Source of the DNA: Yinghuangia seranimata
Lineage (GTDB): Bacteria; Actinomycetota; Actinomycetes; Streptomycetales; Streptomycetaceae
Reading direction: 5' to 3'
DNA length: 64,000 nucleotides
Assembly: GCF_029953285.1 (NCBI RefSeq)
Contig: NZ_JASAOI010000019.1
Location: forward strand, 186,001 to 250,000
Part shown: positions 10,792-21,324 of the stretch, in pieces
Layout: every line of letters starts with the position of its first letter
Position numbering within the stretch: the stretch's first letter is position 1
Notes under the pieces: model-generated
Told to the model about the DNA's origin: nothing
Databases searched by the model: none
What the model saw: only the letters and a program-made list of their open reading frames with translations
Program-made: the position numbers and the translations under genes

Positions 10792-11547
10792 TTACTTCAG
10801 CTGTGAGTACCGCTCCAGCGCGTCCCGGAACGCCGACGGCCCGACGTTCAGCGGCGCCGTGAACGGGTCGCGCAGCTGGAACACCAGCAGGATCCCGAAG
10901 CCGACGATGGCGCCCGCGAAGGCGAGCAGCGCCACGTTGCGCGGGTTGGCCGTCATGCCGACGAGGCACGGGTAGACGACCACGAGGATCCCGGCGGTGA
11001 TCATGGCCGCCAGCAGCACGCGCGGCGAGACGGCGTCGAGGTCCGCCAGGCGGGCGTACCTCTTCACGTAGACGTCGTCGACGGCGGCCGAGGTGGCGTC
11101 GTACGCCGAGCCCCGCCGGTCCTCGGGCACCGCGCCCAACGCCGCCTGGACTCCGTCGAGTTGCCGCCACGCCGCGGAGGACGCGTGGTGGTGGGCGAGG
11201 TCGGGCCACTCGATGTCGACGACGGTGTGCGTGTACTGCGTGATGCGGGCGCGGATCTCCTCGCGGTCGGGCGGCGCGAGGTCGCCGGCGCGGGCGTACG
11301 CCTTGGCCAGCACGCGCGCCTCCTCGTGCGCGTGCGAGCGGGCCAGCGACTGCAACTGCCAGGCGCCGACGATGAGGAAGCCCGTGATCAGGATGAACGA
11401 GGACAGCACCACGCCGCCCGCGAAGGTGAGCGCCTGAGGGTTGAACGAGCCTTCCCGGCTCCGCTCGCTGCGCCCGAGCAGCATCGCCGCGGCGACCGCG
11501 ACACCGGCGCCGAGCACGGCGCACAGGATCCACATCAGCATGATCAT
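10792..11547 (-). CDS. DUF4239 (bestrophin-like) membrane protein 1
   Basis: This protein of 251 residues has two N-terminal transmembrane helices (WILCAVLGAGVAVAAAMLL; VVLSSFILITGFLIVGAWQL), a long helical middle region (~80-180) and two C-terminal helices (LLAAMITAGILVVVYPCLVG; ALLAFAGAIVGFGILLVFQL). The end of the chain, DPFTAPLNVGPSAF, is the most conserved part of DUF4239. The function of the family is unknown; a distant resemblance to bestrophin channels has been proposed. The ATG at 11547 overlaps the stop of the upstream gene (TGATG), so translation is coupled. A related protein lies on the far side of the encapsulin gene. Confidence 0.82.
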   Translation of the reverse strand: MIMLMWILCAVLGAGVAVAAAMLLGRSERSREGSFNPQALTFAGGVVLSSFILITGFLIVGAWQLQSLARSHAHEEARVLAKAYARAGDLAPPDREEIRARITQYTHTVVDIEWPDLAHHHASSAAWRQLDGVQAALGAVPEDRRGSAYDATSAAVDDVYVKRYARLADLDAVSPRVLLAAMITAGILVVVYPCLVGMTANPRNVALLAFAGAIVGFGILLVFQLRDPFTAPLNVGPSAFRDALERYSQLK

Positions 11548-12260
11548 CACGAGGGCCTCCCGGGGCCGCCACGGCTGTTGGCACCGTGACCGACGGCGGC
11601 GAGTGCCGCGGGGACGATGGCGAGCACCAGGGCGCCGCCCAGCCAGGTGATCAGGTCCCAGCCGCCGGAGTCGTCGTCGGGCTCCTCGGCCTTGGCGGCC
11701 GTGGCGGGCATGCGCGGCACGGCCGGCATCGGAGGCGTCGGCGCGGGGCTGGTGGCGGGGGTCTCGGACGGCTCGGGCTCGACGAGCGGCGGCAGGTCGG
11801 GCGCCTGCGCGGCGGGCAGCGCGCGCGGCGGGGGCGTACGGCTGGGAACCGGCCTGTCCGGTACGGGGGTTGGGGGCGGCGGCGCGGGCGGGGCTGGTGG
11901 ACTGCCGCCGATGTTCACGGTGTTGTCCTGGTTGACCGGCCCGCCGCCGGACGTGCTCTCCTGCTGGATGACGGTGACGCCAGGCGCGGGCATCACCTCC
12001 GCCGCGGGCCGCGCGCACGCGCACGGGCAGTGCCGGCCGAGCAGATCGGGGACGAAGAACAGGACGCGGGACAGCAGTTCGGTCATGCCGCAGGACGAGC
12101 CGGCGAGCACCGCGGCCCCCGGCACCGAAACCGCAGGCGTCGCGGCGGGGGCATGCACGGCAGCCGCCGGCGGAACGGCAAGGGCCAACGCGCAGGCCGC
12201 GAGCGGGACCGCGCCGATCCGGATGCGCGGCCGAGCGGGGCGTGCGTACTTCAGGAGCAT
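11547..12260 (-). CDS. Secreted proline-rich protein with C-terminal membrane helix
   Basis: The ATG at 12260 gives 237 residues. They comprise a signal peptide (IRIGAVPLAACALALAVPPAAA), a short domain with four cysteines (GSSCGMTE, HCPCAC), a polar stretch ending PVNQDNTVNIGG, a long Pro-rich linker with acidic patches, and a C-terminal transmembrane helix (LITWLGGALVLAIVPAALAAVG). It looks like a cell-surface protein whose linker spans the wall. I do not recognise the family. It is co-translated with the downstream DUF4239 gene through a TGATG overlap, which suggests joint function at the membrane. Confidence 0.72.
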   Translation of the reverse strand: MLLKYARPARPRIRIGAVPLAACALALAVPPAAAVHAPAATPAVSVPGAAVLAGSSCGMTELLSRVLFFVPDLLGRHCPCACARPAAEVMPAPGVTVIQQESTSGGGPVNQDNTVNIGGSPPAPPAPPPPTPVPDRPVPSRTPPPRALPAAQAPDLPPLVEPEPSETPATSPAPTPPMPAVPRMPATAAKAEEPDDDSGGWDLITWLGGALVLAIVPAALAAVGHGANSRGGPGRPS

Positions 12261-12529
12261 GTGATCAGCGTGGGCACATCCCGCACACGCTGTGAGGGAT
12301 TCGCGACAAGATAGCCCGTTCGGGTAATTCCCGCGGCAGATCCGGCCTTTCCGTCCTCGACAAATCTCCATGGATTTCGTGGAGTTCCTTCGCACATACG
12401 CGCGATGTTGTCGGTTTCCGCCGGTTCGAACCCCACACTTTCGTGTCATTGATCAGCACTTTTCCGGCACCCAGGATGGTTGGCGCAGGCCCGGATCAAC
12501 GGGTCCCGGCATCAGGGGAGGCATGACCA

Positions 12530-13945
12530 ATGACGGTCGAAGCGGGATTCGACATCGAGGCGGACGGCACCGATCCGCAGCAGAGCCTTGGCACCGCCGC
12601 GGCGCGGAATCTGGCGACGACGACCAAGTCCGCGCCTCAGATGCAGGGCATCAGCTCGCGCTGGCTGCTGCGGATGCTCCCGTGGGTCCAGGTCAACGGC
12701 GGTACGTACCGCGTCAACCGGCGCCTCACGTACTCCGTCGGCCGCGGCCGGGTCAGCTTCGCGCAGACCGCGGACCGGGTGCAGGTCGTGCCGCCCACGC
12801 TGTGCGAACTCCCGCTGCTGCGCGGCTTCTCCGACGAGGGCGTGCTCGCCGCGCTCGCGGAGCGGTTCACGCAGCGGGAGTTCGCGCAGGGCGAGCTGCT
12901 GACCGAGGTCGGACGGCCGGCCGACCAGGTGTACCTGGTGGCGCACGGCAAGATCAACAAACTGGGGGACGGCAAGTACGGTGACCAGACGGTGCTCGGC
13001 GTCCTCGCGGACGGCGACCACTTCGGCGACGAGGCGCTGGTCGAGGAGGACGCCGCCTGGGGGTACACGGCGATGGCCGCGACGTCCGGCACGCTCATGG
13101 TGATGCCGCGCCAGGCGTTCCAGGACCTGATCGACCGCTCCCCCGAACTGCTGGTGCAGGTCGCGCAGTTCCTGGCCAGCGCGCAGCAGTCGACGAACAA
13201 CCACGGCGAGGCCGCGATCGAGATGGCGGCGGGCCACGAGGGCGAGATCGACCTGCCCGGCACGTTCGTGGACTACGAGCTGTCGCCGCGCGAGTACGAG
13301 CTGAGCGTCGCGCAGACCGTGCTGCGCGTGCACAGCAGGGTCGCGGACCTCTACAACCAGCCGATGAACCAGATCGAGCAGCAGCTCAAGCTCACCATCG
13401 AGGCGCTGCGCGAGCGGCAGGAGCACGAGCTGGTCAACAACCCGGAGTTCGGGCTGCTGCACAACGCGGACCACGAGCAGCGGATCCACACCCACCACGG
13501 TCCGCCGACCCCGGACGACCTGGACGAGCTGCTGGCCCGGCGCCGCGACACCTCGCTGCTCCTGGCGCATCCGCGCACCATCGCGGCGTTCGGCCGGGAG
13601 TGCAACCGGCTCGGCCTGTACCCCGAGACCGTGGAGCTGCAGGGCAGCCGGGTGCCGGCGTGGCGGGGCGTTCCGGTGCTGCCGTGCAACAAGATCCCGA
13701 TCACGGACGGGCACACGTCCTCGATCCTGGCGATGCGCCTGGGCGAGCACAACCAGGGGGTGATCGGCCTGCAGCAGACGGGTCTGCCCGACGAGGTCGA
13801 GCCGAGCCTGTCGGTGCGGTTCATGGGGATCAACGAGAAGGCGGTGATCTCCTACCTGGTGAGCGCCTACTACTCGGCGGCGGTGCTCGTGCCGGACGCG
13901 CTCGGCGTCCTGGAGAACGTCGAGATCGCGCGGCCGCGCGACTGA
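12530..13945 (+). CDS. Family 2B encapsulin shell protein with cyclic-nucleotide-type domain
   Basis: This 471-residue protein combines an HK97-fold encapsulin shell subunit with an inserted cNMP-binding-like domain (residues ~95-225). That arrangement defines family 2B encapsulins, often misannotated as Crp/Fnr regulators. There is no DNA-binding helix-turn-helix. Shell sequence includes [20 protein letters not shown] and the C-terminal [20 protein letters not shown]. In the nucleotide-binding cassette (FGDEAL), the arginine that normally holds the cyclic phosphate is not seen, so ligand binding is doubtful. GGGGAGG at 12515-12521 sets the ATG at 12530. Known family 2B cargos are mainly terpene cyclases and polyprenyl synthases; none is adjacent. 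Related DUF4239 genes lie on both sides. Confidence 0.88.
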
Positions 13946-13962
13946 CCACGGCATGACCGGAT

Positions 13963-13988
13963 GCGGCCCGGCCGTCGTGCCGGGCCGC
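13963..13988 (+). terminator. Hairpin after encapsulin gene
   Basis: A 9-bp stem, GCGGCCCGG (13963-13971) and CCGGGCCGC (13980-13988), with an 8-nt loop lies 18 bases past the encapsulin stop. The stem is strong and lacks a T-run, as is common in this kind of genome. Confidence 0.6.
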
Positions 13989-14059
13989 GTCCCGCCGCGC
14001 CCTCGTCGGCGCGGCCGTCTTTCCGACCCCGTCCGAGACACGCACACCAAGGGGCCGTC

Positions 14060-14827
14060 ATGAGCTGGTCGGATGTCTTCATCCTGGTCGGGGCGCTGCT
14101 CGGCGTCACCGCCTGCATCTACGTGGTGCAACGTTTCGTCCCCCACCCGCTGCGCGAACGGCACAACGACGTCGCGGGGTTCATCTTCGCCGCGGTCGGC
14201 GTGCTGTACGCCGTGCTGCTCGCCTTCGTCGTGATCGCGGTGTGGGAGAACCACGACGCGGCGCGCCAGAGCACCTTCAAGGAGGCGGACGAACTCGCGG
14301 GCCTGTACTGGGTGTCGCGCGAACTGCCGCTGCCGCTCGGCGCGGAGCTCGAGCACAGGACGCTCGAGTACGCGGAGACGGTCATGCACCAGGAGTGGCC
14401 GCTGATGGCCAAGCACAAGAGCTCGCCGGGCGCGACGCAGCTGGTGTACCAGATGCGCCAGGGGGTGATGTCGTTCACGCCCGGCAGCACGCGCGAACAG
14501 GTGCTCTACCAGAGCGCCGTGACGCACCTGGAGAACATGGCGTCGGCGCGCCGCTCGCGGCTCAACCAGGTCGACGAGGAGGTGCCGACACTGCTGTGGA
14601 TCGCGCTCATCTCGGGCGCGGTCCTGACCGTGGGGTTCACCTTCCTGTTCGGCCTGTCCAACACGTTGTCGCACACGTTGATGGTGCTGATGCTGACCGG
14701 TCTGGTGGTGGTGTCGTTGATTGTGATCAAGGAGATGGACTTCCCGTTCACGGGCATCACGAAGGTCGAGCCGACCGCGTTCGAGGTGTTCCTGAACCGG
14801 CTCCCACCACCGAGGCTGGTGACCTGA
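14060..14827 (+). CDS. DUF4239 (bestrophin-like) membrane protein 2
   Basis: This 255-residue protein has the same plan as the DUF4239 protein at 10792-11547. It has two N-terminal helices (FILVGALLGVTACIYVVQRF; FIFAAVGVLYAVLLAFVVIA), a helical middle with LLxxYxxxVxxxEWP-type spacing, and two C-terminal helices (LLWIALISGAVLTVGFTFLF; LMVLMLTGLVVVSLIVIKEM). It ends in the family signature around DFPFTGITKVEPTAFE. The ATG at 14060 follows a weak GGGG site. Its function is unknown. Its position beside the encapsulin gene, opposite a paralogue on the other side, suggests a shared locus. Confidence 0.82.
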   Translation: MSWSDVFILVGALLGVTACIYVVQRFVPHPLRERHNDVAGFIFAAVGVLYAVLLAFVVIAVWENHDAARQSTFKEADELAGLYWVSRELPLPLGAELEHRTLEYAETVMHQEWPLMAKHKSSPGATQLVYQMRQGVMSFTPGSTREQVLYQSAVTHLENMASARRSRLNQVDEEVPTLLWIALISGAVLTVGFTFLFGLSNTLSHTLMVLMLTGLVVVSLIVIKEMDFPFTGITKVEPTAFEVFLNRLPPPRLVT

Positions 14828-14935: not shown

Positions 14936-15433
14936 ATGGCGAGGATCGAGATCCCCGAGGACGAGGGCCTGGAGGTGTTCCGCGCGCTGGACCTGGCGCC
15001 GCACTTCAAGGAGCTGGTGGTGGCGTACGAGACGGCGGTGGCCAAGAGCCCGTTGGACCGCCGGCTGCACGAGCTGGTGCGGATGCGGATCGCCCAGATC
15101 AACGCGTGCACGGTGTGCCTCAACTGGCGCAACGCCGACTGGGGCGTCACCGAGGAGGACCTGGCGGCGGTCGGCGAGTACGCCGACAGCCCGCTGTTCT
15201 CGGCCGAGGAGAAGACCGCGCTGGAGTACGCGACGCGGTTCGCGACCGACTCGGCCGGCATCGAGGACGAGCTGCTCGAACGGCTGGTCGGCTTCCTCGG
15301 CCCGGAGGGCGTGGTGGACCTGACGCTGGTGCTCGGCAAGTACCTGGCGATGGGGCGGTTCATGCAGGTGCTGGGCCTCGACCAGGCGTGCAGTCTCACG
15401 TACGCCGACGGCGAGCTCGTGATGAGGAGCTGA
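14936..15433 (+). CDS. Carboxymuconolactone decarboxylase (AhpD-like) family protein
   Basis: This 165-residue all-helical protein carries the AhpD/CMD signature. A CxxC pair sits in ACTVCLNWR, preceded by HELVRMRIAQIN. In AhpD the equivalent cysteines are redox-active and supply reducing equivalents to peroxiredoxins, so a peroxide or thiol-redox role is more likely than true lactone decarboxylation. GAGAGGGG just upstream supports the ATG at 14936. A TetR gene begins 47 bases downstream on the same strand and may regulate it. Confidence 0.85.
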   Translation: MARIEIPEDEGLEVFRALDLAPHFKELVVAYETAVAKSPLDRRLHELVRMRIAQINACTVCLNWRNADWGVTEEDLAAVGEYADSPLFSAEEKTALEYATRFATDSAGIEDELLERLVGFLGPEGVVDLTLVLGKYLAMGRFMQVLGLDQACSLTYADGELVMRS

Positions 15434-20319: not shown

Positions 20320-21324
20320 TCAGCCGAGCGGGACCGCGAGCGTCGTCCGCGCCTGCGCGGCGTGGTACCGGTGCAGCGCGCCGACCCAGTCGACCGCGGC
20401 CTGTGCCTGGCGCCGCGTCGCCGACGAGACGTCGGGCAGCGCCGAGACCGCCCGCACGCCGTGGTCCAACTGCGTCTTCCAGGCGCCGAACAGCACCATG
20501 CCGCTCTGGAACGCGGTCGGCACCGAATGCCCGTACTCGCGCATCAGCACCGGGATCAGCGTGAGCCGCGTGCCGGCCTCGACGGCCTGGCGGTAGCCGG
20601 TCAGGTCCTCGTCGACGGCCGTCAGCAGCCCCGCGAGCTCGGTGAGCGGCGCGATCCCCTCGGCGGGCGGGCCGCCGAGCGCGCCCAACGCGGGGTCGAG
20701 GCGGTGCAGCGCCGTGAACATGGGCACCGGCGTGCGGTCCACCCGGTTGTCCAGGAACTCCGGCAACGAGGGCGGCAGTTCGGCCGACATGAGGTCCCGG
20801 TCGCGGCGCGCCGCGGCGCAGTACCGCTCCAACGCGTCGGCCAGGTCGGGAAGCACGGCCGCTCCCCCGCCGGCCGTGATGCGCTCGTAGAGGTCCGTCA
20901 AGGCGAAGTGCAGCGCGTCGGCCCCGGTGGTGTAGCCCTCCCGGAGGATGGTCACCAGCGACGCGGCGTACCCCAGGTCCCACCCGACGACCAGCGCGCG
21001 CTCGTTGAGCACTTCGAGCCACGTCGCGTACAACCCCGCGATCCGCAGCGCCCCGATCGGCGCGTCCCGCATCGCCTCGGCCACCGGCCCCACAGGCCGC
21101 CGCCGGTCCACGACGCCGCCCTCCGCCGCCGCGGACAACCCGGTCCGCTGGGCCCAGACCCGGGCCTCGATGGCCACGGTCTCCCCGTCCGGATGCGCGG
21201 GCAGCCGCGGGCAGCGCAGGTCGGCGTGCGCGACGGCCTCTGCGATGAGCATGTCGATGTCGCCCCGGGGCACGGTCACCACCACCTGGGCACGCGGCAA
21301 CTGATCATGCGCATGCCCTGCCAC
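20320..21324 (-). CDS. Terpene-synthase-like protein with degenerate metal motifs
   Basis: This 334-residue all-helical protein follows the order of bacterial class I terpene synthases: an ALTDLYERI helix, LPEFLDNRVDRTPVP (compare LxEYLxxRRxTG), then LAGLLTAVDEDLTGYRQAVEAG where the NSE metal triad should be. The NSE-type site reads EDLTGYRQA instead of NDxxSxxxE, and the first aspartate-rich site is reduced to VVGWDLG. It may therefore be catalytically dead or have another role. The start is a GTG at 21324; a downstream start at the MLIAEAV segment is possible. It is probably transcribed after the DUF952 gene, 55 bases upstream. Similarity to the family is moderate. Confidence 0.55.
   Translation of the reverse strand: MAGHAHDQLPRAQVVVTVPRGDIDMLIAEAVAHADLRCPRLPAHPDGETVAIEARVWAQRTGLSAAAEGGVVDRRRPVGPVAEAMRDAPIGALRIAGLYATWLEVLNERALVVGWDLGYAASLVTILREGYTTGADALHFALTDLYERITAGGGAAVLPDLADALERYCAAARRDRDLMSAELPPSLPEFLDNRVDRTPVPMFTALHRLDPALGALGGPPAEGIAPLTELAGLLTAVDEDLTGYRQAVEAGTRLTLIPVLMREYGHSVPTAFQSGMVLFGAWKTQLDHGVRAVSALPDVSSATRRQAQAAVDWVGALHRYHAAQARTTLAVPLG

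Follow-up and report, generated by a model that had tools for sequence, protein, structure and literature searches.

A Family 2B encapsulin gene that recurs beside genes for predicted bestrophin-like DUF4239 membrane proteins in part of the Streptomycetaceae

In the soil actinomycete Yinghuangia seranimata (GCF_029953285.1), the gene for the shell protein of a Family 2B encapsulin (P0003) is flanked on both sides by genes for DUF4239 membrane proteins (P0001 and P0004). The locus lies in the 64,000-nucleotide stretch analyzed here, called the window, which spans positions 186,001 to 250,000 of contig NZ_JASAOI010000019.1. The association between shell and DUF4239 genes is real and recurrent in part of the Streptomycetaceae, and we found no earlier report of it in the open-access literature, supplements aside. 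Our preferred explanation, to which we give about an even chance, is that the locus is a variant of the Family 2B type, with the shell and a bestrophin-like channel serving one process, probably related to isoprenoids.

The shell gene (12530..13945, +) encodes 471 amino acids. Its product scores 780 bits against the NCBIfam model for Family 2B encapsulins (NF041163, cut-off 400) and 470.5 bits against the HK97-type SrpI-like shell domain (PF19307), while residues 116-203 match the cyclic nucleotide monophosphate (cNMP)-binding domain PF00027 with 58.6 bits. The Family 2B shells with the solved structures 9bhu and 9bix are close relatives. By these sequence criteria P0003 is a Family 2B encapsulin with a shell domain and an internal cNMP-like domain, in agreement with the first-pass annotation of this DNA. 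A role as a defence system was rejected, as the PADLOC matches are confined to the cNMP domain. The same annotation had questioned ligand control of the shell because a phosphate-binding arginine is missing. At the aligned position, which we take to be that of the canonical phosphate-binding arginine of cNMP domains, the residue is indeed absent from P0003, but 176 of 185 Family 2B shells have a tryptophan there, and the missing arginine is thus a family-wide trait with nothing specific to this locus. Family 2B domains are reported not to bind cyclic nucleotides (PMC12407261), and the internal cNMP-binding-like domain is described as the defining difference of Family 2B from 2A (PMC8346489).

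P0004 (14060..14827, +, 255 amino acids) lies 114 bases to the right of the shell gene and is co-directional with it. To the left, and divergent from the shell, are P0002 (11547..12260, -), a Pro-rich protein, and P0001 (10792..11547, -), which has 251 amino acids from this start. As first annotated, both P0004 and P0001 belong to DUF4239 (PF14023, cut-off 32; 222 and 109 bits), a family now named ‘Bestrophin-like’ in Pfam. They are 23% identical to each other, and no other PF14023 match was found in the 9.8 Mb genome. Searching the PDB by sequence with DUF4239 yielded no convincing match, but the fold comparison did. The AlphaFold model of P0004 (pLDDT 91.7) aligns to the bacterial bestrophin KpBest with Z 17.5 and rmsd 3.2 over 243 of 255 residues, and that of P0001 (pLDDT 87.7) with Z 16.9 and rmsd 3.3 over 231 of 251 residues, against a baseline of Z about 11 for unrelated rows. 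Both proteins therefore have a predicted bestrophin fold that resembles KpBest (PMC8496536) over nearly the whole chain, albeit at only about 10% identity. The bestrophins whose structures have been solved form C5 homopentamers, and KpBest acts as a sodium channel (PMC8496536); for the DUF4239 proteins, a pentameric state and channel activity are predictions.

To survey the linkage, 101 Streptomycetaceae genomes were searched for PF14023 and for the shell, and the 150 listed rows of each were compared. Of the listed PF14023 genes, 54, spread over 50 of the genomes, have a 2B shell gene within 5 kb, where random placement would give 0.34, and none lies at 5-10 kb from a listed shell gene. The linkage is unevenly spread over genera, which carry working labels (g1, Yinghuangia; g14, Kitasatospora; g2, which from shared gene order is probably Streptacidiphilus). 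Among the matches listed, linked genomes make up 3/3 in g1, 13/14 in g2, 1/1 in g3, 17/21 in g6, 1/2 in g7 and 15/20 in g14, and there are none in the 11 other genera, which include g9 (0/21). In g2, g3 and g14 the DUF4239 gene follows the shell gene in the same direction; the two converge in g6 and diverge in g7, while g1 has one co-directional and one divergent copy, the latter of the L type described below. The three Yinghuangia genomes have exactly two PF14023 matches each, which flank one shell gene. The nearest named genome is that of Yinghuangia soli, with a shell 89% identical to P0003. Genome G001 retains all four genes of the block, the shell, the Pro-rich gene and both DUF4239 genes, while only two of 13 other genes in the stretch clearly match the flanks in the window (the terpene-synthase-like gene discussed below and its neighbour) and one does so weakly.

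A second sample of named genomes comprised 79 loci (80 minus one duplicate) in which DUF4239 was sought in six frames; it represents the best 80 of 355 shell relatives and hence leans to shells like P0003. DUF4239 was found within 5 kb in 28/79 of these loci. Among loci without known cargo the count was 15/24, or 14/16 for those with at least 2.5 kb on both sides, compared with 10/22 loci that have only a prenyltransferase (PT), one of them (L019) with a fragment. Loci with a terpene cyclase (TC) or 2-methylisoborneol (2-MIB) synthase had DUF4239 in 3/33 cases (L048, L057 and L064), all in Pseudonocardiales and Streptosporangiales bins. Among these loci DUF4239 is rarer beside terpene cyclases (3/33 vs 25/46, Fisher p 3.3e-5). 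At L012, L019, L048, L057 and L064 the DUF4239 frame had no gene call and was found by the six-frame search, and Pfam confirms DUF4239 at L012, L039, L048, L057, L064 and L070. At L019 the fragment of 108 amino acids (13405-13728) lies downstream of the shell, a short TC-like frame and a PT, and this is possibly a decaying locus.

Most DUF4239 proteins at shell loci fall into three types, R (like P0004), L (like P0001) and K (g6 and Kitasatospora), which are about 20-27% identical between types. These were compared with a tree of 185 shells, built by a quick method with SH-aLRT (Shimodaira-Hasegawa-like approximate likelihood ratio test) support only and with linkage labels that leave aside the five frames found by six-frame search alone. 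A further 20 loci that had been chosen with their linkage known are included in the tree and excluded from the locus counts. The Yinghuangia shells group with R-linked Streptacidiphilus and Kitasatospora shells and with the C20 shell of the Y. seranimata genome, introduced below (26 rows, 98%). K-linked shells occur in separate places, and the starred branches force at least seven changes of the K label. The linkage might still be passive, i.e., common ancestry could hold the genes together with no functional tie, and its patchiness (0/28 and 0/12 loci in the class-wide sample below) and its clustering on the tree would fit this. However, three DUF4239 subfamilies, in varied orientations and with varied flanks, occur at several places on the shell tree, and we consider passive linkage scarcely probable.

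The linkage could also be a relic, in which a PT cargo gene was lost and the shell and DUF4239 were left behind. Five loci, most of them in Kitasatospora, have a PT gene between the shell gene and DUF4239, and relatives in Kitasatospora show the order shell, PT, DUF4239; this PT, 75-79% identical in three g14 genomes, has at best 39-51% homologues in the 20 g1, g2 and g6 genomes tested. On the other hand, all three Yinghuangia genomes have intact frames for the shell and for the R- and L-type DUF4239, with terminal stops only, and the dN/dS of 0.17-0.30 shows purifying selection on the shell and both DUF4239 genes. The shell-DUF4239 pair is moreover kept in 13/14 g2 genomes among the matches listed. 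A relic is thus very improbable.

The left-hand DUF4239 gene comes with a partner. P0002 has hydrophobic N-terminal and C-terminal stretches and between them a Pro-rich part (39% Pro over residues 116-190); its homologue in Y. soli is 39% identical. A Pro-rich frame with a hydrophobic C-terminus and a common ‘VPA’-like core lies directly upstream of K- and L-type DUF4239 genes in general. Counting DUF4239 genes from the gene caller only, it was present in 26/26 testable linked K and L genes (24 distinct, as two genomes were fetched twice) and upstream of 0/21 R and weak-R genes, and such a frame precedes 25/1854 control genes. The Pro-rich gene and K- or L-type DUF4239 thus form a stable pair. 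The proteins are too low in complexity for firm alignment, and their position, composition and C-terminal core suggest that they form one family. The first-pass annotation had described a secreted protein coupled to DUF4239 at this locus. The coupling stands, as P0002 overlaps the start of P0001, but the protein belongs with the channel: the Pro-rich gene was also found at 20/20 DUF4239 genes fetched away from shells (L217-L236), all K- or L-like, which makes P0002 a channel partner and no encapsulin component.

The locus had also been called cargo-less, as no terpene cyclase or polyprenyl synthase was seen beside the shell. None adjoins it: models for TC, PT, methyltransferase and 2-MIB synthase matched none of the 48 genes called in the window (xylulose kinase was not searched for), and none of 20 Aminotran_5 matches lies on the shell’s contig. 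However, a gene 6.4 kb away (20320..21324, -) encodes a divergent terpene-synthase-like protein that matches PF19086 (terpene synthase) with 39.7 bits (cut-off 23.7), and the term ‘cargo-less’ is therefore unproven. If this protein were the real cargo, the locus would be an ordinary one of Family 2B whose cargo is divergent. PF19086 is above cut-off in three species, and in each of the three Yinghuangia genomes the gene is found at a distance of 4-8.5 kb from the shell, with homologues of 69% (Y. soli) and 60% (G001) identity near the same block. Yet the gene is on the opposite strand with five genes between, and its neighbour (DUF952) is conserved as well, so that the presence of the gene could be due to synteny alone. 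The product lacks the cargo motif, the profile aligns at the middle and end only, and its catalytic and metal-binding motifs look degenerate when compared with what we assume to be the canonical forms. Among gene-called loci classed as having no cargo or PT only, it was found at Yinghuangia loci alone. We therefore regard this protein as an improbable cargo.

Cargo could instead be supplied in trans, with the shell loaded by a terpene cyclase from another locus and DUF4239 unrelated to cargo. The genome has two more 2B shells, 73% (contig C20) and 64% (contig C7) identical to P0003. The C20 shell adjoins a terpene cyclase with the published cargo motif (PMC8346489), and the C7 shell adjoins a motif-bearing cyclase and a methyltransferase that we read as 2-MIB genes. 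Motif-bearing cyclases away from the shell also occur in linked genomes: three g6 genomes (L162, L176 and L182) have geosmin-synthase-like proteins with the motif, and the single-shell g2 genome G019 has a motif-bearing terpene-cyclase-like frame (L172) on another contig than the shell. In contrast, Y. soli, whose genome is 96% complete, has retained the full block and only one 2B shell but no motif-bearing cyclase, its sole motif match being an unrelated membrane protein, and the geosmin-synthase-like protein of Y. seranimata itself lacks the motif. Loading in trans is hence possible but doubtful. An Enc-type PT in trans was rejected, as the genome’s own PT, presumably part of a hopanoid-type cluster, and two more distant homologues have no long N-terminal extension. 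The cargo may come from elsewhere, be the divergent terpene-synthase-like protein, be of another kind, or be absent.

The cargo motif was also tried as a genome-wide finder and rejected, since the 30 match loci read from a longer list were mostly non-cyclase. By features that we assume to be diagnostic, three look like geosmin synthases and 24 like sedolisin proteases; one is a membrane protein and two have no called gene, one of which is the cyclase-like frame at L172. A small membrane protein of two Yinghuangia genomes (L089, L175) contains GPSGLGT, which is like the cargo motif. Separately, the N-arm of the shell has the sequence ‘SLGTAAAR’, similar to ‘GPTGLGTAAAR’, which is the cargo motif in the C20 terpene cyclase (L005 9725-10954), and the cargo may mimic the shell N-arm.

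Several results weigh against a variant locus in which shell and channel act together. Among the listed DUF4239 genes, 96/150 have no listed shell gene within 5 kb. In a class-wide sample of 28 of the 42 shell-bearing genomes outside Streptomycetaceae, with one locus each, and of 12 loci from g9, a genus already known as unlinked from the 101-genome comparison when sampled, linkage was found in 0/28 and 0/12 loci; strong as it is, the linkage therefore has a limited range. The effect of terpene cyclases was not significant when assessed on 10 independent tree pairs from well-supported branches, of which 2-3 were informative (median p 0.5). A linked 2-MIB locus exists (L100), and linkage is no clean marker of a cargo-less type. 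The K and L types and their Pro-rich partner also exist far from encapsulins and thus have a role independent of the shell. Finally, the C-terminal tail of the R type is as conserved in five unlinked members, and so carries no obvious shell-binding signal. The earlier suggestion of a different type of encapsulin locus consequently holds in part: linkage is recurrent, contrary to the absence that the annotation had named as a refutation, involves three subfamilies and is found at 15/24 loci without known cargo, but it extends to 10/22 PT-only and 3/33 cyclase loci.

In the variant locus that we propose, the shell gene would travel with one or two DUF4239 proteins and, for the L and K types, with the Pro-rich partner. 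P0003 would assemble a cytosolic shell, P0004 and P0001 would form pentameric channels in the cytoplasmic membrane, and P0002 could be an accessory subunit of P0001 that reaches outside the membrane. The channel might provide ion balance or membrane contact for the shell, with both taking part in one process. An isoprenoid context is suggested by the PT between shell and DUF4239, by the nearby terpene-synthase-like gene, and by locus L241, where a pair of genes that we read as 2-MIB genes adjoins DUF4239. A more specific idea, built on symmetry matching, is that a five-fold bestrophin-like channel docks via its cytosolic vestibule on a five-fold shell vertex, so that ions or small charged products such as pyrophosphate from isoprenoid reactions pass between the lumen and the outside; we consider this very unlikely as it stands.

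Family 2B encapsulins with TC, PT, xylulose kinase (XK) or cysteine desulfurase (CD) cargo share the HK97-type shell with an internal cNMP-like domain, and single-shell operons are common among them, as here (PMC8346489, PMC12407261). The present locus differs in that no canonical cargo is adjacent and bestrophin-like genes lie on both sides. Two-component 2B operons of the class ‘Other’ likewise have no obvious cargo (PMC12407261), whereas the window holds a single shell gene and not two within 10 kb. The P0003 motif ‘RRRD’ resembles that of the self-assembling Sl-Enc2 (RRRK) and not that of Sl-Enc1 (TVWK) (PMC12407261). A parallel outside bacteria is BST4 of the Chlamydomonas pyrenoid, where a bestrophin-like protein likewise occurs at membranes of a compartment rich in protein (PMC10680556), although the pyrenoid is a eukaryotic Rubisco condensate and not a closed shell, and BST4 was concluded to be an ion channel and not a tether. 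In the open-access literature, we found no paper linking encapsulin and bestrophin and no overlap between DUF4239 papers and encapsulin papers; DUF4239 may nonetheless already appear in an accessory-gene table somewhere else. The usual picture of encapsulins is of shells that are free in the cytosol and are defined by the enzyme they carry. If the tie to a bestrophin-like channel is true, some encapsulins act at, or together with, the membrane. This would give a testable partner for Family 2B shells with no obvious cargo, and would place DUF4239 and its Pro-rich companion in a functional context.

The divergent intergenic region between P0002 and the shell gene (12261..12529) contains a 12-base inverted repeat (12435-12446) that is kept in the three Yinghuangia genomes. 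As a regulon marker it was rejected, as its sole other match in each genome is inside a coding gene, and a scan for promoters and terminators found none. The CMD/AhpD-like gene at 14936-15433 was considered as cargo; it adjoins the block in the window and in Y. soli, but G001 lacks it there, so it is no part of the unit. On the minus strand, Rfam RF02735 (Sernc350, a Saccharopolyspora antisense sRNA) matches 12565-13074 with 163 bits, antisense to the 5' part of the shell gene. This match may merely reflect the coding sequence or may hint at antisense control of encapsulins.

Some other loci have arrangements of their own. At L241 (3001-5826), an R-type DUF4239 comes after a motif-bearing cyclase-like gene and a methyltransferase, and the 11 kb fetched contain no shell gene. 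L023 and L025 have a shell and a 2-MIB-type methyltransferase with an L-type DUF4239 before them, and no 2-MIB synthase was found within 5 kb. In g6, a relative of DedA (VTT domain) lies upstream of the shell and in the same direction at the nine loci fetched (L095 7067-7753; L092-L094, L096-L099 and L111); DedA proteins are known as polyprenyl-phosphate transporters.

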